This document shows positions 466-15,286 of a stretch of 29,598 nucleotides of DNA, one piece after another. This DNA comes from a virus. Location of the stretch: IMG/VR virus record IMGVR_UViG_3300026320_000022, positions 1 through 29,598 of that record. One strand, written 5' to 3'. Position 1 is the first letter of the stretch; the number at the start of each line of letters is the position of its first letter. The notes beneath the pieces are model-generated. The model did no database searches. It saw only the letters and a program-made list of their open reading frames with translations, and was not told the DNA's origin. Made by a program: the position numbers and the translations under genes.

Positions 466-788
466 TGACCCTCATCAGATTGATGGAAAGTACCCTATAC
501 AAATCGCCAGGGACTATCATCGTCAGTCGAGATGACGACGGCGTCCATCATTTCTCTAGCTCCGAACGTCCAGACCGCATCATCATCGACATCCACAATC
601 TGAGCATCGGCTTCGGTTGGATGAACGTGAACAGCGTCCAGAAGACGATCACGTTCTCCCTTGACGGGGAGGTTTTGGTGTATCGTCGCATCGGCAAGGA
701 CCCCCACGGGTGGTGGGTCTGCGATCGGGTGCATGATGGCGATCAACTTCACGAAGGCGATAGAGCTTCAGGTAGTCCGCAAGCTTAA
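465..788 (+). CDS. Small phage protein of unknown function
   Basis: This encodes 107 residues from GTG 465. CGGAG lies seven bases upstream of this start; an in-frame ATG at 483 has no visible ribosome binding site, so GTG is preferred. The middle is rich in alternating hydrophobic residues (RIIIDIHNLSIGFGW, KTITFSLDGEVLVYR), which suggests a small beta-sheet protein. I do not recognise the family. The last 56 bases overlap the proposed start of the large protease gene in another frame. That is a long overlap, so either the C-terminus here or the next start could be misplaced. Confidence 0.5.
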   Translation: MTLIRLMESTLYKSPGTIIVSRDDDGVHHFSSSERPDRIIIDIHNLSIGFGWMNVNSVQKTITFSLDGEVLVYRRIGKDPHGWWVCDRVHDGDQLHEGDRASGSPQA

Positions 789-3774
789 GTCCCATGCCAA
801 GGTCGGCTACCAGGACCATCCCAATGGCGACAAGCGGTGCTCTGGCTGCTCGATGTTCGTTGAGGGCAACCCGCCGGCATGCACCCACGTTGCACCTCCG
901 ATAGCCTCCCACGGCTACTGCGACGACTATGAACCGCTCGATCCCAACGCCAGGGCGCGCGCGGCCATTGGGAAGGCCAAGTCTTTCGCCGAGGTGCTGA
1001 AGGACGGTCCTCCGGACGAGTCTCGCGACAATCAGGGCAAATGGACGACGGGGTCTGGCGTTGGCCAAGGGACGACGAGGCAGAGCGGCAGGACCGGTGG
1101 CAGGATTGCTGGTCGGCGCGGCCAGTCAGTGAGCACCTACCTGGATGCCGAGCTTCGCCGGGAAGAGCGCCAGCAGGCCCGCGACGAGAAGCAGATGGCC
1201 GATGCTCAACAGAAGGTGAATGACCTTCAGCGCCAACTCAGCGAGCACAGCCAGGACAAGAGCGAGGACCTCTATTGGGGCATTCACCGGATGTACCAGC
1301 AGGCGGTGACGGATCTTCACGAGTTGCACCAGCAGATATTCGGGAAAGCATTTAGCAAGGCGTTCGATCCAGGCGAACCTCGCGACGAGAAGGGACGATG
1401 GACGGCAGGTGATTCCCCGGGCCATCCTGACCAGCTAAACGCCGAAGACAGTAGCAAGTTGGCTGCCGCCATGGAAGACGTGCCGCAAGGTATGCACGAT
1501 AGTGTTGATCATATTGAGGAGGCTCGTCAGGCGTTGCAGGATGCAACCGACAACGCCGACGATGTCGCTAGCGAGGAGGAACCTATTCTTGATGAGCACG
1601 GTGCGAATTCTAAAGAATATGCCGCATGGGAGAAACAGCTAGAGGTTGCGCAGAGAGACAGCGCAGACAAGGCGATGGCGTTGCATAAAGCGATTGAGGA
1701 CCACATGGACGCGACTACCGGTGTGCTAGGGCAGGTTCGCGCTCGCCTCAGCACGCATGTCGAGGAATATGGCGGTAGAGTGGGCAAGAGCATGACCGTC
1801 GGCGACGTCCATGCCGCCACTGCGCTCGGCAACCAGTCTCCCAACAAGCGCAAGGCGAAGGACTTCCTGACCACCATCGGGGAGATCAATGGTGCGCGCG
1901 TCATGGCGATTCCGGCCATGAACTTCGGCAAGGCGCTGGAGAAGATCAAGGCGGATGTGCTCGGCGGCATAGCGATCCCGGTGGAATGGGGAAAGAACCG
2001 CATCGCGCCGAATCTGACGCATTATTGGCCGTTCGAGAAGCGCACCGTCAACGTCCTGTTCATGCGTCATGGCCCGACCCGGTTCAACAATCAGACCGAC
2101 ATGTCGAAGGACAGAGTGCGGTCGTGGAACAACGTCCCGCTGACGGCGGAGGGCATCGAGGACGCCGAGAAGGCCGGCGAGAAACTGGCGAAGCAAGACA
2201 TCGGCTACATCGTCAGTTCTGATCTCGGCCGCGCCATCCAGACGTCTAAGATCGTCGGCAAGGCGATTGGGATCAAGCCCATCCATGACTATGGAATGCG
2301 GCCGTGGAACCTCGGCAAGTTCACCGGACAGACGACGGACGAGGCCCATGACGGTATTTTGGAGCACGTCGAGAACCCGGACGAGATGGTGGACGGCGGC
2401 GAGTCGTTCAACACGTTCAAGGCCCGCGCCGCCCAGGCGATGCTGAACCACATCAAGAAGGCAGGCAGCAAGAAGATGCTTGTGGTTTCCCACCACCGCA
2501 ACGAGCGCCTGTTCGCCGCGATGCGGCCGGACGGGACGGTCGACGCCAAGAAGTTCATGAAGACCGGCGAGGACCCCGGCGACGTCACCGAGATGGAGTT
2601 CAGCACCGATGAACTCCAGAATGCCCTCAGGGGCGCCAAGGAAGGTCCTGGGGAGGAGAAGATCGGCAAGGTGTGGGGCAGCAACGATGAACTTCCGGAC
2701 GGCGTCAGGAACGTCCTGCCGCAGGAGGCGCAGACCGTCTGGCGCAAGGTGGCCAACGACCGCATCAAGGCAGGGCAGTCCGAGAAATCCGCCATCCGGC
2801 AGGCGTGGACCGCCGTCAAGAACGGATGGAGCAAGACCAAGGACGGTTGGGTGCGCAAGACGTGGCTGGAGTCGGACGGCGTCCACGAGTTCCTCGAGGC
2901 GGAACTGGCCAAACTGGGGGGTAGCACGTCGTCCATCGCCAAGCCCACAGACCAGGTCAACGTATCGCTCCAGCTGATCCCGTTGGACGATCAGAATGCG
3001 CGTTCTCCGTTCCCGTACGACCAGTACTTCTTCTCTGACCTGCGCAACGACCAGAAGGAGCGCGTGCTGGCGGCGCTGACGGACCAGGATTCGCTGGAGG
3101 AGCGGGAGATCCCGTTGTCCATGCTGTCAGCCGTCCAGGACCGGGTCGACCCGGGGAAGATACAGTCGATGATCGAGGGTGCCCCTGAAAAGCGTCCGGT
3201 GGTGGTACGCATTGGCCCGGGGCGCTACTGCATAGTCGACGGTCACCATCGGCTGACGGCGGCGAAGCTTAGCGGTGTGAAGACGGTCACGGTCAAATAC
3301 CTCGACATCGAGGACTATGACCCGCGCGTCCATACCGATGAAAATCAAGGCAGCAAGGGCGAGCCCGTGAACAAGGCGCTCGACATGGAGATCGAGTTCG
3401 ACGTCCGGAAGACCGACGAGGACCAGCAGCTTGTGTTCGGCTGGGCGTCGGTCTGCTCCATCGGCGGTGTGGATGTGGTCGACAAGCAGGACGACATCAT
3501 TCCGGAGGACGAGCTGGAGAAGGCGGCATACGACTTCGCGCTCTACTGCCGCCAGCAGGGCGACATGCACGAGCGGATGGGTGTCGGGCGGTTGGTCGAA
3601 TCCATGATGTTCACCAAGCAGAAGCAGGACGCTATTGGGATCGACCTGGGGTTGACGGGGTGGTGGGTAGGATTCAAAGTCGATGATCCTGGCGTCTGGG
3701 CCAGAATTAAAGATGGGTCGTTGCCTGAGTTCAGCGTGGGGGGGAAGGCGCGGCGGGAAACAATCGACGCTTGA
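733..3774 (+). CDS. Multidomain prohead protease: Cys motif, histidine phosphatase, ChaB-like, ParB-like and XkdF-type protease domains
   Basis: This encodes 1013 residues from ATG 733; the frame is open back to TTG 661. Seen in order are a Cys cluster at about 36-62 (CSGC, then ACTHV, then GYC) and two copies of an RD-x2-G-[KR]-W-T-x-G motif near 98 and 217, with a charged helical stretch between and after them. A histidine phosphatase domain spans about 437-600 with RHG at 445-447, R500, E557 and H587 or H588. A ChaB-like domain lies at about 653-709 (LPDGVRNVLP to DGWVRK), and a ParB-like domain at about 795-870 (VDGHHRLTAAKL). The C-terminus (885-1013) resembles the XkdF prohead protease family, with H946 and S1001 (PEFSVGG) as likely catalytic residues. 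The protease would mature capsid proteins inside the prohead. XkdF-type proteases are usually far shorter, so the upstream 880 residues are fused cargo of the polyvalent-protein type. Domain calls come from motifs; the protease and phosphatase are the most secure. Confidence 0.85.
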   Translation: MMAINFTKAIELQVVRKLKSHAKVGYQDHPNGDKRCSGCSMFVEGNPPACTHVAPPIASHGYCDDYEPLDPNARARAAIGKAKSFAEVLKDGPPDESRDNQGKWTTGSGVGQGTTRQSGRTGGRIAGRRGQSVSTYLDAELRREERQQARDEKQMADAQQKVNDLQRQLSEHSQDKSEDLYWGIHRMYQQAVTDLHELHQQIFGKAFSKAFDPGEPRDEKGRWTAGDSPGHPDQLNAEDSSKLAAAMEDVPQGMHDSVDHIEEARQALQDATDNADDVASEEEPILDEHGANSKEYAAWEKQLEVAQRDSADKAMALHKAIEDHMDATTGVLGQVRARLSTHVEEYGGRVGKSMTVGDVHAATALGNQSPNKRKAKDFLTTIGEINGARVMAIPAMNFGKALEKIKADVLGGIAIPVEWGKNRIAPNLTHYWPFEKRTVNVLFMRHGPTRFNNQTDMSKDRVRSWNNVPLTAEGIEDAEKAGEKLAKQDIGYIVSSDLGRAIQTSKIVGKAIGIKPIHDYGMRPWNLGKFTGQTTDEAHDGILEHVENPDEMVDGGESFNTFKARAAQAMLNHIKKAGSKKMLVVSHHRNERLFAAMRPDGTVDAKKFMKTGEDPGDVTEMEFSTDELQNALRGAKEGPGEEKIGKVWGSNDELPDGVRNVLPQEAQTVWRKVANDRIKAGQSEKSAIRQAWTAVKNGWSKTKDGWVRKTWLESDGVHEFLEAELAKLGGSTSSIAKPTDQVNVSLQLIPLDDQNARSPFPYDQYFFSDLRNDQKERVLAALTDQDSLEEREIPLSMLSAVQDRVDPGKIQSMIEGAPEKRPVVVRIGPGRYCIVDGHHRLTAAKLSGVKTVTVKYLDIEDYDPRVHTDENQGSKGEPVNKALDMEIEFDVRKTDEDQQLVFGWASVCSIGGVDVVDKQDDIIPEDELEKAAYDFALYCRQQGDMHERMGVGRLVESMMFTKQKQDAIGIDLGLTGWWVGFKVDDPGVWARIKDGSLPEFSVGGKARRETIDA

Positions 3775-3861
3775 CCGCCACGTGAAGACGTGACAGCGTG
3801 ACCGGGTTGGAGTTTCTCCCTGAATTTCAACATCTCAGAGATCCCCTCTCAGAGAGCGAAG

Positions 3862-3899
3862 TCGGGCCTCCCGCCACACTGGAGGCCCGATTTGATTTT
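3862..3899 (+). terminator. Rho-independent terminator after the protease gene
   Basis: A perfect 10-base-pair stem (TCGGGCCTCC at 3862-3871 with GGAGGCCCGA at 3881-3890) encloses a 9-base loop. TTTGATTTT follows. It starts 88 bases after the protease stop and separates the first operon from the downstream region. Confidence 0.85.
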
Positions 3900-3970
3900 G
3901 GCTCCTCAAATGATATAGCTAGCGACACTGTGCGGGCGTCTGTCCGTTCAGCTACGAAGCAGTTGACTTT

Positions 3971-4002
3971 CAGGCGGCGTGTTGAAAGCGTCGCCTGTTT
4001 TT
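3971..4002 (+). terminator. Second terminator-like hairpin with a T run
   Basis: CAGGCGGCG at 3971-3979 pairs with CGTCGCCTG at 3989-3997 with one G-T wobble, and five T residues follow. A third hairpin with a 9-base-pair stem and one wobble lies at 4008-4029 but has no T tract. Two terminators within 140 bases suggest a firm transcriptional boundary, or else the 3' end of a short RNA made between them. Confidence 0.6.
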
Positions 4003-4163
4003 CTCTTAGCCTCCGGCGTGCCGGGGGCTATTCTCGCGGAAGTGGCTACGGCCCCTTAGTGAAGCCAGATTAGGTGTCCAGGGCATTCGCGTGCGAGGTG
4101 CTGCACGCTACCGAATCTGGATAATTGCCGGCCGACGAACCGGCCCGCGAGAAGCTAAAGCTA

Positions 4164-4229
4164 GGCGGCTCGCTGTCCGTTAGGCTCTCATCCGGATGGC
4201 GGCTCGCTGCACAAACGGCTCTCATCCGC
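4164..4229. repeat. Two-unit tandem repeat, period about 34 bases
   Basis: GGCGGCTCGCTG occurs at 4164-4175 and again at 4198-4209, and each copy is followed by GGCTCTCATCCG (4183-4194 and 4218-4229) after a variable 7-8-base spacer. The first element returns at 4566-4577, and its reverse complement (one mismatch) lies at 4336-4347 just before the next gene. These repeats link the non-coding region to the leaders of the following small genes. Confidence 0.75.
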
Positions 4230-4336
4230 CATGGTGAGAGTGAGCCTATGAATGGGGGATGCGGGTTTGTATCCGTGTCTTAAACGAGCCCCCTACGGCG
4301 GGACGCCCCTATTCGCACCGTGAGGTAGGCTTGGCA

Positions 4337-4354
4337 GCGAGCCGCTGACTGACG
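4337..4354 (+). repeat. 18-base direct repeat, copy 1 (gene leader)
   Basis: GCGAGCCGCTGACTGACG at this position is repeated exactly at 4580-4597. This copy ends nine bases before the ATG of the 75-residue gene and sits beside its GAGGGA ribosome binding site, so it forms part of that gene's leader. Confidence 0.85.
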
Positions 4355-4363
4355 AGGGAAGAC

Positions 4364-4591
4364 ATGAGCGATTTGATCGAACGGCTGCTCAATAAGAACT
4401 GGCTATGGACGGTTCCTGGCGCATTGCGCGAAGAAGCCGCCGCCCGTATCCGCGAGCTGGAAGATGAACGAGACGCTCTTCAGATGGCAAATACGGAAAC
4501 TGGAATGCAGGCCATCTTATGGAAAGGGCGCGCCGAGAAGGCCGAGGCTGAAAGTGAATCTATTAGGCGGCTCGCTGCCGCGAGCCGCTGA
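4364..4591 (+). CDS. Small helical phage protein of unknown function
   Basis: This encodes 75 residues from ATG 4364 with a good GAGGGA ribosome binding site. The sequence is mostly helical and charged (EEAAARIRELEDERDALQMA), typical of a short coiled coil, and resembles the many small accessory proteins of phages that begin MSDLIERL. The last codons (RRLAAASR) are encoded by a hairpin at 4567-4588, and the second copy of the 18-base leader repeat overlaps the stop codon. The gene is therefore bracketed by direct repeats, which suggests it is a duplicated or swappable cassette. Its function is unknown. Confidence 0.7.
   Translation: MSDLIERLLNKNWLWTVPGALREEAAARIRELEDERDALQMANTETGMQAILWKGRAEKAEAESESIRRLAAASR
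4567..4588 (+). other. Hairpin overlapping the end of the 75-residue gene
   Basis: GCGGCTCG at 4567-4574 pairs perfectly with CGAGCCGC at 4581-4588 across a six-base loop. There is no T tract, so it is more likely a regulatory or mRNA-stability element, or a product of the repeat family, than a terminator. Confidence 0.55.
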
Positions 4592-4597
4592 CTGACG
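4580..4597 (+). repeat. 18-base direct repeat, copy 2 (gene leader)
   Basis: This is an exact copy of 4337-4354. It ends eleven bases before the TTG at 4609, so both copies sit at the same kind of place: immediately ahead of a start codon. Confidence 0.85.
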
Positions 4598-4608
4598 GGG
4601 TACGAAAC

Positions 4609-4707
4609 TTGACACAGGACGGCGTTCGGAGTGTCACTTTTGGCACGATCCAGGGTAGAGGTATCGTGAGGTACGTGCCTGTTGAGGTGTCCACCGAGGA
4701 GGAGTAA
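4609..4707 (+). CDS. Candidate 32-residue small protein
   Basis: A TTG-started frame runs from 4609 to TAA 4705-4707, and its stop abuts the ATG of the next gene (TAAATG). ACGGGG upstream could serve as the ribosome binding site, and the repeat copy at 4580-4597 mirrors the leader of the 75-residue gene. The peptide is TFGTIQGRGIVRYVPVEVS flanked by polar ends, with an acidic C-terminus (STEEE). I do not recognise it. Its short length and rare start codon keep confidence moderate; it could instead be a leader whose translation is coupled to the next gene. Confidence 0.4.
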   Translation: MTQDGVRSVTFGTIQGRGIVRYVPVEVSTEEE

Positions 4708-5031
4708 ATGACAGACACAGCCTCAATGAAAAAGTATACACTGGTCCAGCCCGTCGTGATGGAAGGCTTCCCCGACGCGCACAATGTCTTCCTGCAAGTA
4801 ACGAACCAGCGCTTTTGCGTCTCGCCGCACGGCTGCGATACCAAAGAAGATGCGGAGTGGATGCAAGATCAGCTATGCGTCGCTTTGGCAAAGCTCGTTG
4901 ATGACGAGCTTGTAGGCTACCGCACGCCGGCGACACCGCCTGATTTCGCGAACATCCTTGATGCTGCCGGCAAGCCTTTTGGCAGCTATCCGCCGACTAC
5001 GTCGACACCGGCGCATGCTGGAACGGAATGA
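4708..5031 (+). CDS. Small phage protein of unknown function
   Basis: This encodes 107 residues from ATG 4708, preceded by an excellent ribosome binding site (GAGGAGGAG). The middle (YTLVQPVVMEGFPDAHNVFL, then CVSPHGCDTKEDAEWMQDQL) suggests a small alpha/beta fold, and there is no signal peptide or membrane segment. I do not recognise the family. The 3' end overlaps the convergent PadR-like gene by 35 bases. Its neighbours are other small genes of a regulatory or moron-like patch between the protease and scaffold genes. Confidence 0.65.
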   Translation: MTDTASMKKYTLVQPVVMEGFPDAHNVFLQVTNQRFCVSPHGCDTKEDAEWMQDQLCVALAKLVDDELVGYRTPATPPDFANILDAAGKPFGSYPPTTSTPAHAGTE

Positions 5032-5338
5032 GGGCATCGCGGATAGCGACGACGCCGTCAGCGGTGAGGTCGTATAGGATCCTTGGTGGCCTATATTCCG
5101 TGGCGGCGTTAACTTTCTCATGGTGGCACCGGACCCAGCCACGGCGCTCGAAGCTGCGGAATATCTGAGACACCGAAGTGGGCGATGTCCCGACCCGCTT
5201 GGCGATCTCCCAGCCCCAGTGCTTCTTGTCCCGCTCCGTAAGCATGATGCTGCCGACCTTGAGCGATATGGTGGGGATTCTCCCGTTGCTTCCCGAGTAT
5301 CCCCGGCGCTGCCGGTAGTCTTTCATCGCGTGGGACAT
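4997..5338 (-). CDS. PadR-like winged-helix transcriptional regulator
   Basis: This encodes about 113 residues on the - strand. The core KHWGWEIAKRVGTSPTSVSQ followed by FRSFERRGWV is a DNA-recognition helix-turn-helix, and RPPRILYDLTADGVVAIRDAL matches the wing and C-terminal helix of PadR-type repressors. The start is taken at ATG 5338, with GGAGCGAAG upstream; TTG 5383 and the in-frame ATGs at 5326 and 5245 are alternatives. PadR proteins usually repress nearby genes, often their own. It is one of only two - strand genes here and points away from the scaffold operon, so it may control expression of an accessory or lysogeny-related function. The family is fairly clear; the target is not. 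Confidence 0.7.
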   Translation of the reverse strand: MSHAMKDYRQRRGYSGSNGRIPTISLKVGSIMLTERDKKHWGWEIAKRVGTSPTSVSQIFRSFERRGWVRCHHEKVNAATEYRPPRILYDLTADGVVAIRDALIPFQHAPVST

Positions 5339-5412
5339 CTGATCGTTCTTCGCTCCATTATGCGCGCGCTCATGAATTTCCAACGTTTTGACGTGGCTGT
5401 AAATAGCAATGC

Positions 5413-6813
5413 ATGGCCCGCGTACTCCGGAACCTTCGCATAGATGATGTGAGCAGCGTCGATGTGGGCGCGGGACGTGGCGTCAAGGTGGTTCTCACGA
5501 AGCGCAACATGCCTTCGCTGTACGAGTCCATGGGGCCTGACGAGATTGCGGACCTCTCCGAGGAAGTGGCGGAATATCTAAAGCGCGAGTTCAGCGGCAA
5601 GGAGCGCCAGTCTGCCGCGGACAGCGGCGCTGCCCTTCCTGATGGTTCATTCCCGATCAAGACCAAAGAAGACCTTGGCAACGCCATCCAGGCGATCGGC
5701 CGCGCGAAGAATCCGGCGAAGGCGAAGGCGCACATCAAGGCGCGGGCATCTGCGCTCGGCGCGTCAGACATGCTGCCGGATTCCTGGAGCAAGGGCCTCA
5801 CCAAGGCCGACGTCGAGTTGGTCGCCGAGCGCAACGTCTTCGCCAAGGTGTGCAAGGCGGCGAAGGACTTCAGCGACATGGCAGACGCCATGGAGACGGC
5901 CGAGGACGCGTCGGAACTGATGTGTGCCGTTCGCGACGCGATGTGCGCGCTCGATTGCTCGATACAGTCCATCCTTTGCGACGAGGACATCACCGACAAG
6001 GTCCCGTCGATCACCACCAGCTACAACCAGTTCAAGGACCACATCGCCGGACTCGGACTTGAGGACGACGCTGATGACGACACGGAGAAAAAAGACATGT
6101 CCCAAGTGACAGCCCTGACCACCGCAGCGGTCCAGAAGATGATCGACGAGGCCGTCACCAAGGCCGGCGCCGAGAAGGACGTGCGCATCGAGAAACTTGA
6201 GATGGAACTCCTCATCTCGAAGATGTCGGACGCCCAGAGGACCTACCACGACAACCTGGGATCGGACACGGACAAGAAGAAGTTCCGCGACATGTCACCA
6301 GATGCGCGCGACGGCGAGATGGACAAGACGAAGAAGCGTTTGTCCGACGATCCGATTGTCAAGGGTTTGATGGCCGAGAACGCAGATCTGAAGAAGCGCC
6401 TCGACGCCATGGACGACGAGCGCGACCTCAAGATCGCCAAGCAGGACGCGAAGGACTCTGGGTTCACCCAGACCGACGCCGGCGAGGTGCTGATGAAGAT
6501 GCGCCGCGGCGACAAGGACGCCATCAAGAAGTACGAGGGCATGGTCGCCGAGTTGGCGAAGTCCAAGAAGGCGTTCGAGAAGTCCAGCCGCGCGTTCGAG
6601 GAGATCGGCGTCACCGGTTCGCCGGAAGGCGAGGGTGCCACCGCGATGGACGCCATCGCCACGATGGCCAAGGCGCTGCGTGAGAAAGACCCGTCCCTCA
6701 CCGAGGCCCAGGCGTTCGACAAGGCCTACAACGATCCGGCCAACATCAAGCTGCGCCAGGCCGAGGCCGACGCGCGCATGGCCAAGATCCACGGCCGGTC
6801 CCACGCCGCCTGA
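5413..6813 (+). CDS. Scaffold protein with an N-terminal XkdF-associated domain
   Basis: This encodes 466 residues from ATG 5413. The N-terminus (ISSVDVGAGRGVKVVLTKR style) is typical of proteins encoded next to XkdF-type proteases. Residues about 78-130 match a small helical domain (FPIKTKEDLGNAI to LPDSW). From residue 229 to the end the protein is highly charged and predicted coiled coil, as expected of a capsid scaffold that assembles the prohead and is then removed by the protease. An in-frame ATG at 6097 has its own ribosome binding site and may yield a shorter 238-residue scaffold. It lies directly upstream of the decoration and capsid genes. The role is inferred from composition and position. 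Confidence 0.75.
   Translation: MARVLRNLRIDDVSSVDVGAGRGVKVVLTKRNMPSLYESMGPDEIADLSEEVAEYLKREFSGKERQSAADSGAALPDGSFPIKTKEDLGNAIQAIGRAKNPAKAKAHIKARASALGASDMLPDSWSKGLTKADVELVAERNVFAKVCKAAKDFSDMADAMETAEDASELMCAVRDAMCALDCSIQSILCDEDITDKVPSITTSYNQFKDHIAGLGLEDDADDDTEKKDMSQVTALTTAAVQKMIDEAVTKAGAEKDVRIEKLEMELLISKMSDAQRTYHDNLGSDTDKKKFRDMSPDARDGEMDKTKKRLSDDPIVKGLMAENADLKKRLDAMDDERDLKIAKQDAKDSGFTQTDAGEVLMKMRRGDKDAIKKYEGMVAELAKSKKAFEKSSRAFEEIGVTGSPEGEGATAMDAIATMAKALREKDPSLTEAQAFDKAYNDPANIKLRQAEADARMAKIHGRSHAA
6084..6087 (+). promoter_or_regulatory. Internal ribosome binding site for a nested scaffold start
   Basis: GGAG at 6084-6087 sits nine bases ahead of an in-frame ATG at 6097 (codon 229 of the scaffold gene). 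The run GAGAAAAAAGAC between them is unusually A-rich for this gene. The shorter product (6097-6813) would be the coiled-coil scaffold alone, as in phage lambda, where the scaffold is made from a nested start. Confidence 0.45.
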
Positions 6814-6851: not shown

Positions 6852-7442
6852 ATGTACTTCGAGAAAGAGATCGGCCAGGGCCGCGCCTTCATGGAGCTGG
6901 AGCGCCGGACGGACGGCGGTTTCGGCATCAAGCGCCGCGGGTTCATCCAGCGCGCCAAGGGCCGCCCGGTCCAGCAGCAGCAGGCGACGGAATCGCCGCT
7001 CATCCACGACGGGTCTCAGACTATCCTGTCGACCGGGCAGGATTTCCGCAACTCGACGATCACTGGTACGACCCTAGCTGGTCCAAGCGGCAGTGGTCAG
7101 TACTTGTTGGTCACGCTCAGCACCGGTCGCACCATCACTCTGTTCACGTCGACGATGATCAATTTGTCGTCGGCCCAATCAGTGTATGGCGTCTGTCAGA
7201 ACAAGCCACGCGCTGGTGATGCGGTCGACGTCGGTATCTTTGGCATCACGAAGGTGGTGTCAGCATCCACTGCAATCGCTGGCGGATCATTGCTGCAAGC
7301 ATCATCCACATCATCCGGCTCAGTTGTTCCGTGGGCTAGCGGCAATGGCAGAGCAGTCGGCATCGCAATCGAGAACGCGCTTAGTGTCGGTGCGGTATTC
7401 ACTGCCTTCGTTGGCGGCGTCCAGATCGCGTCAAGCTTCTGA
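6852..7442 (+). CDS. Putative capsid decoration protein (DUF2190-like)
   Basis: This encodes 196 residues from ATG 6852 with a GGAGGAG ribosome binding site. The C-terminal half (GDAVDVGIFGITKVVSAST, then GNGRAVGIAIENAL) has the small beta-rich pattern of phage head decoration or cement proteins of the DUF2190 kind. These bind the outside of the mature capsid and stabilise it. The N-terminus is basic and Gln-rich (RPVQQQQ). It lies between the scaffold and capsid genes, the usual place. Its stop overlaps the next start (TGATG). The family match is by pattern only. Confidence 0.6.
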   Translation: MYFEKEIGQGRAFMELERRTDGGFGIKRRGFIQRAKGRPVQQQQATESPLIHDGSQTILSTGQDFRNSTITGTTLAGPSGSGQYLLVTLSTGRTITLFTSTMINLSSAQSVYGVCQNKPRAGDAVDVGIFGITKVVSASTAIAGGSLLQASSTSSGSVVPWASGNGRAVGIAIENALSVGAVFTAFVGGVQIASSF

Positions 7443-8540: not shown

Positions 8541-9557
8541 GTGCCCTCACCCACGTTCGGGGACGTCCACGTAGCTGCAGCGTTGACCCAAATTGCCGTC
8601 GCCTACTTCCAGAGCGACGACAACTACGTGGCGGACAAGGTTTTCCCGATGGTGCCGGTCCAGCACCAGACGGACGTCTACTTCGTGTGGAGCAAGGCGG
8701 ACTTCTTCCGCGACGAGGCGCAGGTCCGCGCCGACGCGTCGGAGTCGGCGGGCACCGGCGTCAACCTGACGACGCAGACCTACAGCGCCAAAGTTTGGGC
8801 ATTGCACCAGGACGTCGGTCCGCAGGTCCGCGCCAACCAGGACCCGGCGATCGACATCGATGTGGTGAGCACCCGCCAGCTGATGCAGAAGCTGATGATC
8901 AGGCGCGACCGCTTCTTCATGTCGAAGTACATGATCACGGGTGTCTGGAACACGCTGGGCGGCGGCGACGCCACCGGCACCACCGCGGCGCTCGGCAGTC
9001 CCGGGACCTTTGCGCCCGTATTCTGGGACGACGACGCGAACTCCGACCCTTTCACGGACATCGCGTTCGGCCAGACGACCATCCTGACGAACACCGGCTT
9101 CCTGCCGAACGTGTTCCTGATCTCGTGGAATGTCTACCAGGCGCTGCGCAAGCACCCGCTGGTGATCGATCGTATCAAGTACACGAACCCCGCGTTCGCC
9201 GGCACGATCACGCCGCAGCTCCTTGCGCAGGCGTTCGCGATCGACCGCATCGTGGTCAGCAAGGCCGTCTACAACACTGCGGCCGAGAACCTGAGTGCAT
9301 CGATGGCGTTCGTCGCCGGCAAGAACGCGCTGCTGCTCTACGTGCCGGGACAGCCCGGCCTGATGATCCCGTCGAGCGGCTACACCTTCGGCTGGCAGGC
9401 GTTCACCGGGCTGAACTCGCTGGGCATCAGGGTGTCGCAGATCCCGATGAACTGGTTGGGGCTCGGGACGATCCGCAACGAGGCTGAGATGGCGTTCGAC
9501 ATGCAGGTGGTCGGGGCCGACCTCGGGTTCTTCTGGTCAGCCATAACGACGGTCTGA
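8541..9557 (+). CDS. Major capsid protein (HK97-like)
   Basis: This encodes 338 residues from GTG 8541 with a strong AGGAGG ribosome binding site. The sequence has the composition and length of HK97-fold capsid proteins from phages with this head-gene order. An N-terminal helix is followed by DNYVADKVFPMVPVQHQTD, which resembles the start of such proteins. The middle includes a long helix (STRQLMQKLMIRRDRFF), and IDRIVVSKAVYN with FVAGKNALLLYVP resembles the A domain. It would form the icosahedral shell on the scaffold and be matured by the protease. No separate N-terminal delta domain is obvious; the protease may act on the scaffold instead. Confidence 0.85.
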   Translation: MPSPTFGDVHVAAALTQIAVAYFQSDDNYVADKVFPMVPVQHQTDVYFVWSKADFFRDEAQVRADASESAGTGVNLTTQTYSAKVWALHQDVGPQVRANQDPAIDIDVVSTRQLMQKLMIRRDRFFMSKYMITGVWNTLGGGDATGTTAALGSPGTFAPVFWDDDANSDPFTDIAFGQTTILTNTGFLPNVFLISWNVYQALRKHPLVIDRIKYTNPAFAGTITPQLLAQAFAIDRIVVSKAVYNTAAENLSASMAFVAGKNALLLYVPGQPGLMIPSSGYTFGWQAFTGLNSLGIRVSQIPMNWLGLGTIRNEAEMAFDMQVVGADLGFFWSAITTV

Positions 9558-12468: not shown

Positions 12469-12905
12469 TGGGACACTGCTTCAACTGCGTCCACTGGATC
12501 ATGGGCAAGAAGACCGTCTACAGCGACGGAACCGAGATATTCACGCCCACCTCGGCTCCTGGGAAGGGCCAGTGCCAGGCGCTGAATATCGAGACCCCGC
12601 CAGAGTTCGGCTGCAACGCCCATTCCCTCGGCGAAGTCCACGTCACCGTCACGCAGAAAGACGGTGCTCCCTGGCAGAATTTCGAATATCGGCCTTGCCC
12701 GGATTGTGGCGGGCGCGGTAGCACTCCAGAGGCCGGCATGTGTTATCGATGCTACGGCACGTCTCGGGTGCGCTTCTATGACGACGGCTACATCGGCGAA
12801 GAGCGGACCCGCCTCCACCCGAAGGAAACGGAACCGCCATGCATGGAACCGCCCACGATGACAAACGAACGACCCAATCCGTTCGTGGCCCAGGATACTC
12901 CGTAG
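12468..12905 (+). CDS. Zinc-finger protein with a DnaJ-like Cys motif
   Basis: This encodes 145 residues from ATG 12468 (TGATG overlap). The N-terminus has CFNCVHW, and residues about 78-100 carry CPDCGGRG followed by CYRCYGTSRVRF, a close match to half of the DnaJ-type Cys-rich zinc finger. DnaJ itself has four such repeats and a J domain, neither seen here. The C-terminus is Pro-rich and disordered. It overlaps the start of the methyltransferase fusion by 67 bases. A role as a folding or binding partner for neighbouring products is possible. Confidence 0.6.
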   Translation: MGHCFNCVHWIMGKKTVYSDGTEIFTPTSAPGKGQCQALNIETPPEFGCNAHSLGEVHVTVTQKDGAPWQNFEYRPCPDCGGRGSTPEAGMCYRCYGTSRVRFYDDGYIGEERTRLHPKETEPPCMEPPTMTNERPNPFVAQDTP

Positions 12906-15286
12906 ATTTCTGGAAGTGGTACGAGGAGCACGCGGTCTCGCGGCTCAAGTCGTGGCCCGTCCCGTCGTATCACACCCGCGCCGACACCTTTCGCATGATG
13001 TTCGAGCACCTCGACCGGTTCGACCGGCCAGTGCTCATCGTTGAGACGGGCTGCGCGGAGAGGCTCAACGATGATGGTTGGGGTGGAAACGGGTGTTCGA
13101 CTCTGCTGTTCGACAAGTACGTGAGGACGCATCCCGGGTCATCGTTCGAATCCGTGGATACGGACGCCGCATCCGTCGAGTTGTGCAGGGGAGCGGTGTG
13201 CGCTTCCTCGTACATCCACTGCGGCGACAGCGTTCAATATCTGAAGGCGGCGGCCGATGTTTCTTCCGATCCCATCGACCTGCTCTACCTCGACGCATCG
13301 AACCTGAACTGGGCGGCGACGCTCCTTGCCCAGAAGCACCACCTAGACGAACTGTTGGCGGCGTTGCCGATCCTGCGGCCGAACACGCTCGTCGCTGTCG
13401 ACGACGCCCCGATCGTCCTTGAGAACTGTCCTTACATCGAGGTCGGCGGCAAGGGCGGGCTGGTCGCGAGGTATGCCGCGGAGGTAGGTGCCGAGCAGGT
13501 GTTCCAGCATTACCAGGCTGGCTGGGTTGGGATGGTGTCGTCCGTCGATGTGGCTCCCGTCCCGAGCGAGACCGTCAACCTCAAGGACATGCTGGCGCAG
13601 GCCAGCGGGTACTACCACGCCGGCCGCGTCTTGGACGCCAACAACCTATTCCGTTTGATCTACACGATCACGAAGAATCCAGAGACCAAGGCGCAGCGCA
13701 TCGCCCGTGGCGAGGCATGTTTCTTCTTCGCGAAGATCGCGGCCAGCCAGAAGAAGCTGGGGACGGCGTTCGACTGGTACCAGGAAGCGATCAAATGCGT
13801 CCCGGATGCGGTCGAGTACATCCTGGAGATGGTGGGGCAGACATTGCGGCCGATGCGGCATTGGGACCGGGCGATCAACGAGGCCATCGTGGCGACGCGC
13901 ATCGAGCCGGACAACGTTCACGCGTGGCGCATGCTCGGCGGCCTCTACCTCTGGTCGGAGAAGCTGGAGGAGGCTAAGTCCGCCTTCCGGCGCGCGATGG
14001 AAGTCGACCCGGACGCTGTTGAGCCGAAGTTGGACATGATCTCGGCGCTGTTCGACGACGAGCCGACGAAGGAGGTTTACGCCGAGGCCGAGAGGCTGGC
14101 GCACGAGGTCCGCTTCGCCAAAGAACCGCCCACCGCGCATGGTGACGCGACGCTGACCCTGGCCTTCACCGCCTACCGCGAGGGGCGGCACGAGGACGCG
14201 ATAGCGCTCTACGACGAGGCCTTGGAGGTCGGCGTTAGCGAGCCCGCGACGTGCCACTGGAACAAGAGTTTGTCGCTCCACGCGTTGGGCCGCTACAGGG
14301 ATGGATGGAAGGAGCACACATGGAGGTCCGTGGAGCGCACCCAGCTGCCGCTGTACGTGCCGGTCAATCGCTTCGATCTGCCGATGTGGAATGGCGAGGG
14401 GTCGGTTGCGAACTATAATTATGACACCAGTGCAGATAAGAGTACCGTTACTAGAACACGTATCCATGTCCACGCCGAGGCCGGGTTCGGCGACAACCTT
14501 TGTTGCTCGCGGTACCTTCGGCTGATGACCGATAAGGGATATGACGTTCGCTACGAAGCCTATGAGAACATGCTGTCCCTGATGCAGCGCAGCTTTCCAG
14601 AGGTGAAGGTCGTCCCGCAGGCCATAGACTATCCAGGCGCGATCGGCATCGAGGCGTTTGACTATCACATCCCGATCGGCGAGCTCCCGCACGTGTTCGG
14701 GACGGAGGTCGACACCGTGCCGTGGTTCGGGCCGTACCTGCACACTGATCCGGAATTGGTAGATCGGTATCACTGGATATTGAAGCGCAGCTGCGATCCC
14801 GGTCAGAAGAAGGTCGGCCTGTGCTGGTCGTCCGGCATCCGCGAGGGTCTGTGGATCGCGAGGTACGGCAAGCGGAAGTCGATGCACTTCGACGATCTCA
14901 AAAACATAGTTTACCTGGACATTCCAGTTAGATTCTTCAGTCTCCAGGTCGGACCAGAACGGGATCAGATGAAGTCGTGCAAATATATCCACAATGTCCT
15001 TCCCGAGAAGCCGTCTTGGGACGACACCGCGGCGCTGATCGCCAACCTCGACCTCGTTATCTCCGTCGACACCGCGGTGGTGCACCTCGCCGGCGCGATG
15101 GGAAAGCCCGTGTGGCTGATGAACTCGGCCGAGCCCGGGTCGTGGCACTGGATGGCCGAGCGCCCAGGCTCCCCTTGGAACGAGCGCAGCCCGTGGTATC
15201 CTAGCGTCAAGATCTATCGGCAGAAGAAGGTCGGTGAGTGGGACGAGTTGGTGAGAAGGGTTGCAAACGACCTGAGCGCGGCCTGA
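12839..15286 (+). CDS. Methyltransferase - TPR - glycosyltransferase fusion
   Basis: This encodes 815 residues from ATG 12839. The N-terminal region (about 30-230) is a class I SAM methyltransferase: VETGC at 68-72 is the SAM-binding loop, with SVDTD and DLLYLDAS downstream. The middle (about 245-500) holds tetratricopeptide repeats, such as EEAKSAFRRAMEVDPDAVEP. The C-terminus (about 540-815) is a GT-B glycosyltransferase of the heptosyltransferase (GT9) or SPINDLY-like kind: HAEAGFGDN, KKVGLCWSSG, and SVDTAVVHLAGAMGKP near 742-755. It has no signal peptide, so it acts in the cytoplasm. It could add and methylate sugars on virion proteins or surface polymers. Substrates are unknown; the TPR region would select a protein partner. 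Confidence 0.8.
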   Translation: MHGTAHDDKRTTQSVRGPGYSVDFWKWYEEHAVSRLKSWPVPSYHTRADTFRMMFEHLDRFDRPVLIVETGCAERLNDDGWGGNGCSTLLFDKYVRTHPGSSFESVDTDAASVELCRGAVCASSYIHCGDSVQYLKAAADVSSDPIDLLYLDASNLNWAATLLAQKHHLDELLAALPILRPNTLVAVDDAPIVLENCPYIEVGGKGGLVARYAAEVGAEQVFQHYQAGWVGMVSSVDVAPVPSETVNLKDMLAQASGYYHAGRVLDANNLFRLIYTITKNPETKAQRIARGEACFFFAKIAASQKKLGTAFDWYQEAIKCVPDAVEYILEMVGQTLRPMRHWDRAINEAIVATRIEPDNVHAWRMLGGLYLWSEKLEEAKSAFRRAMEVDPDAVEPKLDMISALFDDEPTKEVYAEAERLAHEVRFAKEPPTAHGDATLTLAFTAYREGRHEDAIALYDEALEVGVSEPATCHWNKSLSLHALGRYRDGWKEHTWRSVERTQLPLYVPVNRFDLPMWNGEGSVANYNYDTSADKSTVTRTRIHVHAEAGFGDNLCCSRYLRLMTDKGYDVRYEAYENMLSLMQRSFPEVKVVPQAIDYPGAIGIEAFDYHIPIGELPHVFGTEVDTVPWFGPYLHTDPELVDRYHWILKRSCDPGQKKVGLCWSSGIREGLWIARYGKRKSMHFDDLKNIVYLDIPVRFFSLQVGPERDQMKSCKYIHNVLPEKPSWDDTAALIANLDLVISVDTAVVHLAGAMGKPVWLMNSAEPGSWHWMAERPGSPWNERSPWYPSVKIYRQKKVGEWDELVRRVANDLSAA

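Follow-up and report, generated by a model that had tools for sequence, protein, structure and literature searches.

Comparison of phage loci shows that a predicted high-potential iron-sulfur protein (HiPIP) and a histidine phosphatase repeatedly occur in one gene or as neighbours in unrelated phages, and one gene that carries both is described here. It is an uninterrupted, ATG-initiated open reading frame (ORF) of 1013 codons at positions 733–3774 (plus strand) of a 29,598-base contig of a soil virus of bacteria, IMG/VR record IMGVR_UViG_3300026320_000022; this whole stretch is called the window below, and related loci are given as L numbers. The predicted parts of the 1013-aa protein follow the order HiPIP, linker, coiled coil, linker, helical part, phosphatase, ChaB, ParB-like domain, and XkdF-type protease. 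We consider it an even call whether this product is a head polyprotein of the polyvalent kind in which the HiPIP and the phosphatase form a pair. An earlier note on this DNA had recognized a polyvalent-type multi-enzyme fusion in the head module with an intact phosphatase, which our analysis bears out, but that reading was incomplete without the HiPIP partner: its domain list correctly held the phosphatase, ChaB, and protease domains and overlooked the N-terminal HiPIP (residues 16–68), two RDxxGxWT linkers, and the opening of a separate gene at 5413 with the strand that other phages may have after the protease.

The predicted HiPIP domain and its phosphatase partner

The N-terminal domain matches the PDB chain of PioC (6xyv, E 7.3e-7) and the NCBIfam Iro model NF041615 (E 1e-6). 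A hidden Markov model from which the window and the four rows closest to it had been left out scored the window HiPIP at 44.4 bits, and none of 5000 shuffled versions of the first 80 residues came near that score (best 12.6 bits). The AlphaFold2 model of the domain has a mean predicted local distance difference test score (pLDDT) of 84.9, with blocks above 90 across residues 21–70 except the last, and comparison with the PDB placed HiPIPs at ranks 1–18 of 20. Among viral models, its weak matches (E 0.06–0.23) include entries labelled XkdF, prohead protease, and ParB/Sulfiredoxin.

The cysteines expected to hold the cluster occur in the order C-x2-C-xn-C-xn-C, with spacings of x2, x10, and x12. 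In the available part of its description, PioC from Rhodopseudomonas palustris TIE-1, an Iro-type HiPIP, has cluster cysteines at 22, 25, 34, and 47 (x2, x8, and x12) and aromatic residues before and 2–3 residues after the last Cys (PMC7462912). The window domain resembles it in its length of ~50 residues, four Cys, a Tyr before the cluster, aromatics at Cys4-1 and Cys4+2/+3 (Y62 and Y66), and modelled fold, and differs in its Cys2–Cys3 spacing (x10 vs x8). Residues Y26, C36, C39, C50, V53, I57, G61, and C63 are invariant in the HiPIP alignment; the pattern used to pick 56 of its 61 rows presets every one of these residues except Y26, which makes the invariance of the other columns circular for those 56 rows. 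Binding of a 4Fe-4S cluster by this domain appears likely.

Unlike cellular HiPIPs, which the same source describes as normally exported electron carriers working at +50 to +500 mV (PMC7462912), the window HiPIP is the N-terminus of a putative phage head protein, where no twin-arginine (Tat) export signal was seen by eye. Cultured phages hold almost no relatives: Synechococcus phage S-SRM01 (GenBank and RefSeq copies), whose protein is already labelled as a HiPIP-profile protein by the automatic naming of UniProt, followed by a weak match to the metagenomic record LR756508. A literature search on phage HiPIPs, with most subscription journals outside its coverage, returned no paper on the topic, and searches on phosphatases with portals and on the combination of polyvalent, ParB, and ChaB returned none on theirs.

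The phosphatase of the earlier note is confirmed as a His_Phos_1 domain with the catalytic residues where that note had placed them (R445 H446 G447, R500, E557, and H587/H588). All 8 aligned phage phosphatases share the catalytic R, H, R, and E and the first H of the H587/H588 pair, and a fold search with the full-length structure model ranked histidine phosphatases at the top. The domain belongs to phrog_12933, a PHROGs family without an assigned function.

A scan with the phosphatase only recovered 66 loci; 17 of these encode a HiPIP within the phosphatase ORF and 8 in a different ORF of the locus. After removal of the window family, L020, and L026, a HiPIP was found in the same ORF in 10 and in another ORF in 8 of the remaining 58. 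When phosphatases were clustered at 60% identity, which allows for overlapping loci on one contig, 10/34 clusters were HiPIP-linked. As a control, the same profiles were applied to 80 S78_2 protease loci outside the window family and found no HiPIP and no phosphatase (Fisher p 3e-8 for 18/58 vs 0/80, with related loci counted apart). The S78_2 counts use L042–L127 (78 viral and 8 genomic loci), the protease scan having supplied the best 80 of 120 loci; L006, which has a phosphatase and whose N-terminus is cut off, and L031 were left out, and including L031, with a HiPIP and no phosphatase, would make the control 1/81 for HiPIP. The combination had been called uncommon, and indeed only 6/86 XkdF-type protease loci (L042–L127) carry a phosphatase, all 6 in the window family.

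In a tree of 55/66 phosphatases (identical and short sequences dropped), whose bootstrap had not settled, HiPIP linkage changes 8 times, with at least 5 changes forced by supported branches. Shuffled labels gave a mean of 15 changes; the linkage label is thus clustered, so that some linked rows (18 in total) have a common origin. In L276 and L283, the HiPIP ORF and the end of the phosphatase ORF overlap, and in L305 the HiPIP ORF begins 27 bases after it.

From the HiPIP side, a PioC-spaced DNA pattern (fixing the four Cys, V, I, and GWC) occurs in at least 120 IMG/VR stretches, of which 120 were sampled. All 120 gave a HiPIP profile match; 39 of the HiPIP ORFs are longer than 110 aa. A phosphatase is present in 5/120, and in three it shares the ORF: in L184 this gene lies between a portal/adaptor gene (phrog_332, E 1e-107) and a major capsid gene (phrog_3437, E 5e-56), and in L187 and L225 it is near terminase genes. 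Loci L029, L020, L026, and L031 were found without this pattern. In L029 and L030, identified by profile search, the portal gene carries a fused phosphatase of this kind, and a HiPIP precedes a DUF2213 head protease; portals with a C-terminal histidine phosphatase are encoded at L028:1208-3502 (Phage_portal_3 E 1.3e-72, His_Phos_1 E 3.1e-32) and L029:6465-8582. Another phage protein family (L288, L289, L290, and L291) joins this type of phosphatase to an XkdF-type protease without a HiPIP.

Relatives of the polyprotein and head context

Relatives were collected in scans with the whole protein, its N-terminus, and the phosphatase-to-protease part. HiPIP, phosphatase, ChaB, ParB-like domain, and protease recur in identical order in L002/L003, L004/L005, and the more distant L020, and L026 has the window-type architecture without ChaB. 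Two shorter arrangements were found: HiPIP, ChaB, and protease only (L031), and, in L027, a Cys-rich start rejected by the HiPIP profile and followed by ChaB, a ParB-like DGHNR stretch, and the protease. Across these relatives, the front HiPIP and the back protease are thus the most constant parts. The modules are parted by RDxxGxWT linkers, of which the window has two, L006 four, and L007 three; L006 holds an additional ParB-like domain between linker copies. Among genomes, the whole-family scan gave 217 pattern matches and no relatives, and the protease scan gave 8 loci, mostly in clostridial metagenome-assembled genomes and one in a Thiotrichales metagenome-assembled genome, none with a HiPIP or phosphatase.

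Comparison across loci shows that the predicted HiPIP recurs in fusions with head proteases or portals, or behind a T4-like capsid-targeting N-terminus. Fusions to DUF2213 occur in L029, L130, L140, L180, and L205 (L029 and L205 being on one contig), and fusions to portal-like proteins in L162, L174, and L191. L231 combines the HiPIP with an S78 head protease, and L177 and L218 combine it with ParB-like domains. HiPIPs also occur in very large phage proteins (L177:5422-11046, L183, L181, and L143; up to 1875 aa) whose start resembles a nucleotidyltransferase by eye. A ParB-like DGHHR stretch is present in those of L177, L183, and L181 and was not seen in the part of L143 that was read, and the L177 protein has an amidoligase match just below the cut-off.

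The internal proteins of phage T4 are cut by the prohead protease and injected. They are small, head-packed anti-defence proteins that, in the portion of the source available, share only a conserved capsid-targeting sequence (CTS; PMC3012670). Stand-alone HiPIPs of the S-SRM01 type start like T4 ipII and ipIII, with MKSYQEFIAEEE in L170 and L203 vs MKTYQEFIAEA. A CTS-like start is found in 37/81 stand-alone HiPIP ORFs of the sample (29/68 distinct ones). For comparison, it occurs in 3/427 ORFs from 150 kb of S-SRM01, one of which is the HiPIP, and in 4/114 ORFs from 50 kb of T4, three of which are ipI, ipII, and ipIII. Unlike the T4 internal proteins, the window protein, which starts with MMAINFTKAIEL, has no capsid-targeting sequence detectable by eye and is tied to the protease itself.

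Mechanism and competing explanations

In a pairing of HiPIP and phosphatase as head cargo, the protease part would probably take the chain into the prohead and might, more tentatively, cut it at the linkers. It is evenly balanced whether the freed HiPIP and phosphatase would remain inside the head and be delivered to the cell along with the DNA, and we somewhat favour their acting there as a pair. The phosphatase might dephosphorylate a small molecule or a defence signal of the host, a rather doubtful step, and with still less confidence the HiPIP may be an anchoring or redox-responsive partner to this enzyme. Of all steps in this mechanism, redox control is the most daring; the virion outside the cell could be oxidised. 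Improbable as a whole, but the widest form of the proposal, is an undescribed and widespread class of tailed-phage, head-borne iron-sulfur ejection proteins. In such a class, the HiPIP would be packed through a prohead protease or portal fusion or a CTS, and the phage-specific histidine phosphatase would be its redox-gated enzyme, switched on in passing from the virion to the reducing cytoplasm and removing a host defence signal.

Several observations weigh against this pairing and against a redox-active cluster. No HiPIP lies in the stretch read at 41/66 phosphatase loci, 81/120 sampled HiPIP loci are stand-alone short ORFs (110 aa or less), L031 joins HiPIP and protease without a phosphatase, and L027 is a protease fusion that lacks one as well. 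Most CTS-bearing HiPIPs belong to a single cyanophage-like lineage. Within the domain, Tyr replaces the Trp before Cys4, two extra residues separate Cys2 and Cys3, and the window HiPIP has no Pfam match to PF01355 (HIPIP) at E≤1. This Pfam cut-off is a recognition score rather than a defining trait; the S-SRM01 HiPIP exceeds it and the L184 HiPIP falls just below. The domain could also bind Zn, and a HiPIP cluster in the reducing cytoplasm would sit reduced because HiPIPs work at +50 to +500 mV.

A different account makes the HiPIP only a structural or docking knob, stabilised by Fe-S or Zn, that serves prohead entry without redox work and co-occurs with the phosphatase because both are head cargo. 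Its many stand-alone copies, and its joining to portals and three protease families without a phosphatase, speak for such a knob. We nevertheless hold it rather unlikely: given the CTS-like start of stand-alone HiPIPs in T4-like phages, another docking tag would be superfluous, and the HiPIP–phosphatase pairing is far above the S78_2 control. The cargo could also act in the producing cell before packaging, the protease fusion setting only expression or turnover; the phosphatase, for example, might target a host metabolite at a late stage of infection. Phage phosphatases that stand alone exist (L032–L035), and the protease could free the domains, but a place inside the head is indicated by the prohead protease and portal fusions and by the CTS-like N-termini of cyanophage HiPIPs, and we give this account little credence.

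Passive shuffling of head-gene cassettes, with the linker as a landing site for domains that have no joint function, would fit the variation at one site of the MuF head gene. There, a ParB-like cassette is found in L002 and L026, a different one in L010, and none in L004; the RDxxGxWT motif heads all three inserts and is absent where L004 has no cassette, and L021 has a short insert without the motif. Extra cassettes between extra linkers in L006 and L007 agree with shuffling. Against it, HiPIP and phosphatase also pair without RDxxGxWT linkers, as adjacent genes or two-domain proteins (L184, L225, L276, L283, and L305), and we consider a by-product of this kind improbable.

Integrity, neighbouring genes, and known systems

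Positions 733–3774 form one intact gene, in line with the earlier note, and not a product of faulty assembly: full-length copies of 74–85% identity are present in L002, L004, and L005, all from other samples (the L003 ORF equals that of L002), so the assembly-error reading fails. A ChaB domain and a C-terminal XkdF-type protease were found as the note had proposed. Its ParB-like domain is borne out in part, by a phrog_8071 match and by the ParB-protease genes of Rhizobium phages; the Pfam ParBc_2 match (residues 821–863, E 0.0078) is below the cut-off, and no ParB fold is among the 50 listed fold matches of the full-length model. That model is poor (mean pLDDT 54.6), and the arrangement of domains is not readable from it. 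Coordinates and evidence are collected in Table 1.

Table 1. Features of the polyprotein gene and of the head genes downstream in the window
Feature	Positions	Strand	Evidence
Putative head polyprotein gene, 1013 aa	733..3774	+	Profile matches; full-length relatives L002, L003, L004, L005
Predicted HiPIP domain, residues 16–68 (Cys36, Cys39, Cys50, Cys63, Tyr62, Tyr66)	778..936	+	PioC 6xyv, NF041615, model, shuffles
Linker motif copy 1, FAEVLKDGPPDESRDNQGKWTTGSG	982..1056	+	Copies also at module borders of relatives and in MuF genes
Coiled-coil segment, residues 132–206	1126..1350	+	Predicted helices 132–171 and 178–206
Linker motif copy 2, KAFDPGEPRDEKGRWTAGD	1345..1416	+	RDxxGxWT motif
Short VHAATALGN motif	1807..1833	+	V359, H360, L365, G366 invariant in 9 family members
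Histidine phosphatase branch 1, residues 441–625	2053..2607	+	PF00300 E 9.1e-30; phrog_12933 E 1.1e-19; catalytic residues; fold match
ChaB domain, residues 654–709	2692..2859	+	PF06150 E 3.9e-10
ParB-like domain with DGHHR, residues 748–870	2974..3342	+	phrog_8071 E 5.2e-6; SbnI/SerK-type models E 0.003–0.004; Pfam below cut-off
XkdF-type prohead protease (Peptidase_S78_2), residues 891–1008, H946, S1001	3403..3756	+	PF14550 E 1.6e-18; phrog_3017 head maturation protease E 3e-9
Separate gene opening with LRNLRIDDVSSVD strand (post-protease strand of some other phages), then scaffold-like region	5413..6813	+	ORF list; same split in other phages
Head decoration/cement-like protein	6852..7442	+	PF09956 E 7e-4 (below cut-off); phrog_673 E 1.8e-6
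Major capsid protein	8541..9557	+	phrog_1005 E 2.3e-71

Protease residues H946 and S1001, which we take to be the catalytic residues of the head protease domain, occupy invariant alignment columns. The last strand or strands after the Ser region are not in the same chain, and the gene at 5413 opens with them; other phages show the same split, so it does not exclude membership of Peptidase_S78_2. In many XkdF-type proteases, the chain ends 7–13 residues past the active-site Ser region and the next gene opens with an LxNLxIxEVSSVD-like strand. A simple pattern for this strand, which also misses known cases such as L042, placed it in the next gene in 22/88 loci and in the same chain in 1, and did not detect it in 65. 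An XkdF-type protease made of two chains is possible. An intron or insertion at 3775–5412 parting the protease from the next gene was rejected: the segment has no Rfam match, the spacer varies among relatives, and the split recurs in other phages.

Other genes of the window and its relatives were noted in passing. Past the capsid genes, 12839–15286 encodes an 815-aa protein with a methyltransferase-like start followed by TPR-like repeats (by eye), and 24553–27057 encodes an 834-aa protein with many repeats of a GWEIxPFQPPHPRPE-like unit. An intein with a sub-threshold HNH_3 match splits the B12-binding/radical SAM protein of L002:98-2542, and the Portal_Mu portal gene at L026:1078-3774 contains a LAGLIDADG-type insert resembling an intein. 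In the head operon of window relatives, a di-haem protein lies between the MuF gene and the HiPIP fusion. The copy at L002:4492-5562 has a signal-peptide-like start, two CxxCH motifs, and a match to the Pfam di-haem oxidoreductase DHOR (E 3.8e-27, this copy only), and that at L021:3384-4508 is its counterpart by similarity. In this phage, a c-type cytochrome would thus lie close to a HiPIP; a literature search on phage c-type cytochromes returned only tetrapyrrole genes as a topic.

Polyvalent proteins are the nearest known kind. As described by Iyer et al. 2017 (PMC5512222, in the part available), they are multi-domain, occur in a phage packaging context, contain a ParB-like domain, and are predicted to be processed and packaged; likewise, the window protein combines several unrelated domains in one phage protein of a packaging module, with capsid genes downstream. 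The available main text on polyvalent proteins mentions no ChaB, phosphatase, iron, or XkdF (PMC5512222). Polyvalent proteins use zincin-type peptidases (PMC5512222), whereas the window protein instead has a predicted prohead serine protease and a HiPIP; no zincin-like peptidase is among its Pfam matches, such peptidases being a common polyvalent theme and not required. ParB-like/prohead protease fusions of Rhizobium phages (MN988470 and others) show the same ParB-like and XkdF-type order and the same split from the next gene but, unlike the window gene, have no HiPIP, phosphatase, ChaB, or linkers.

If our reading is true, a metal-cofactor protein would be added to the known cargo of phage heads, and the unnamed phage phosphatase family phrog_12933 would gain a partner. 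The host effect of injected head proteins would become testable with a small, easily expressed pair, and the linker and CTS-like motifs offer a practical route to further head cargo.

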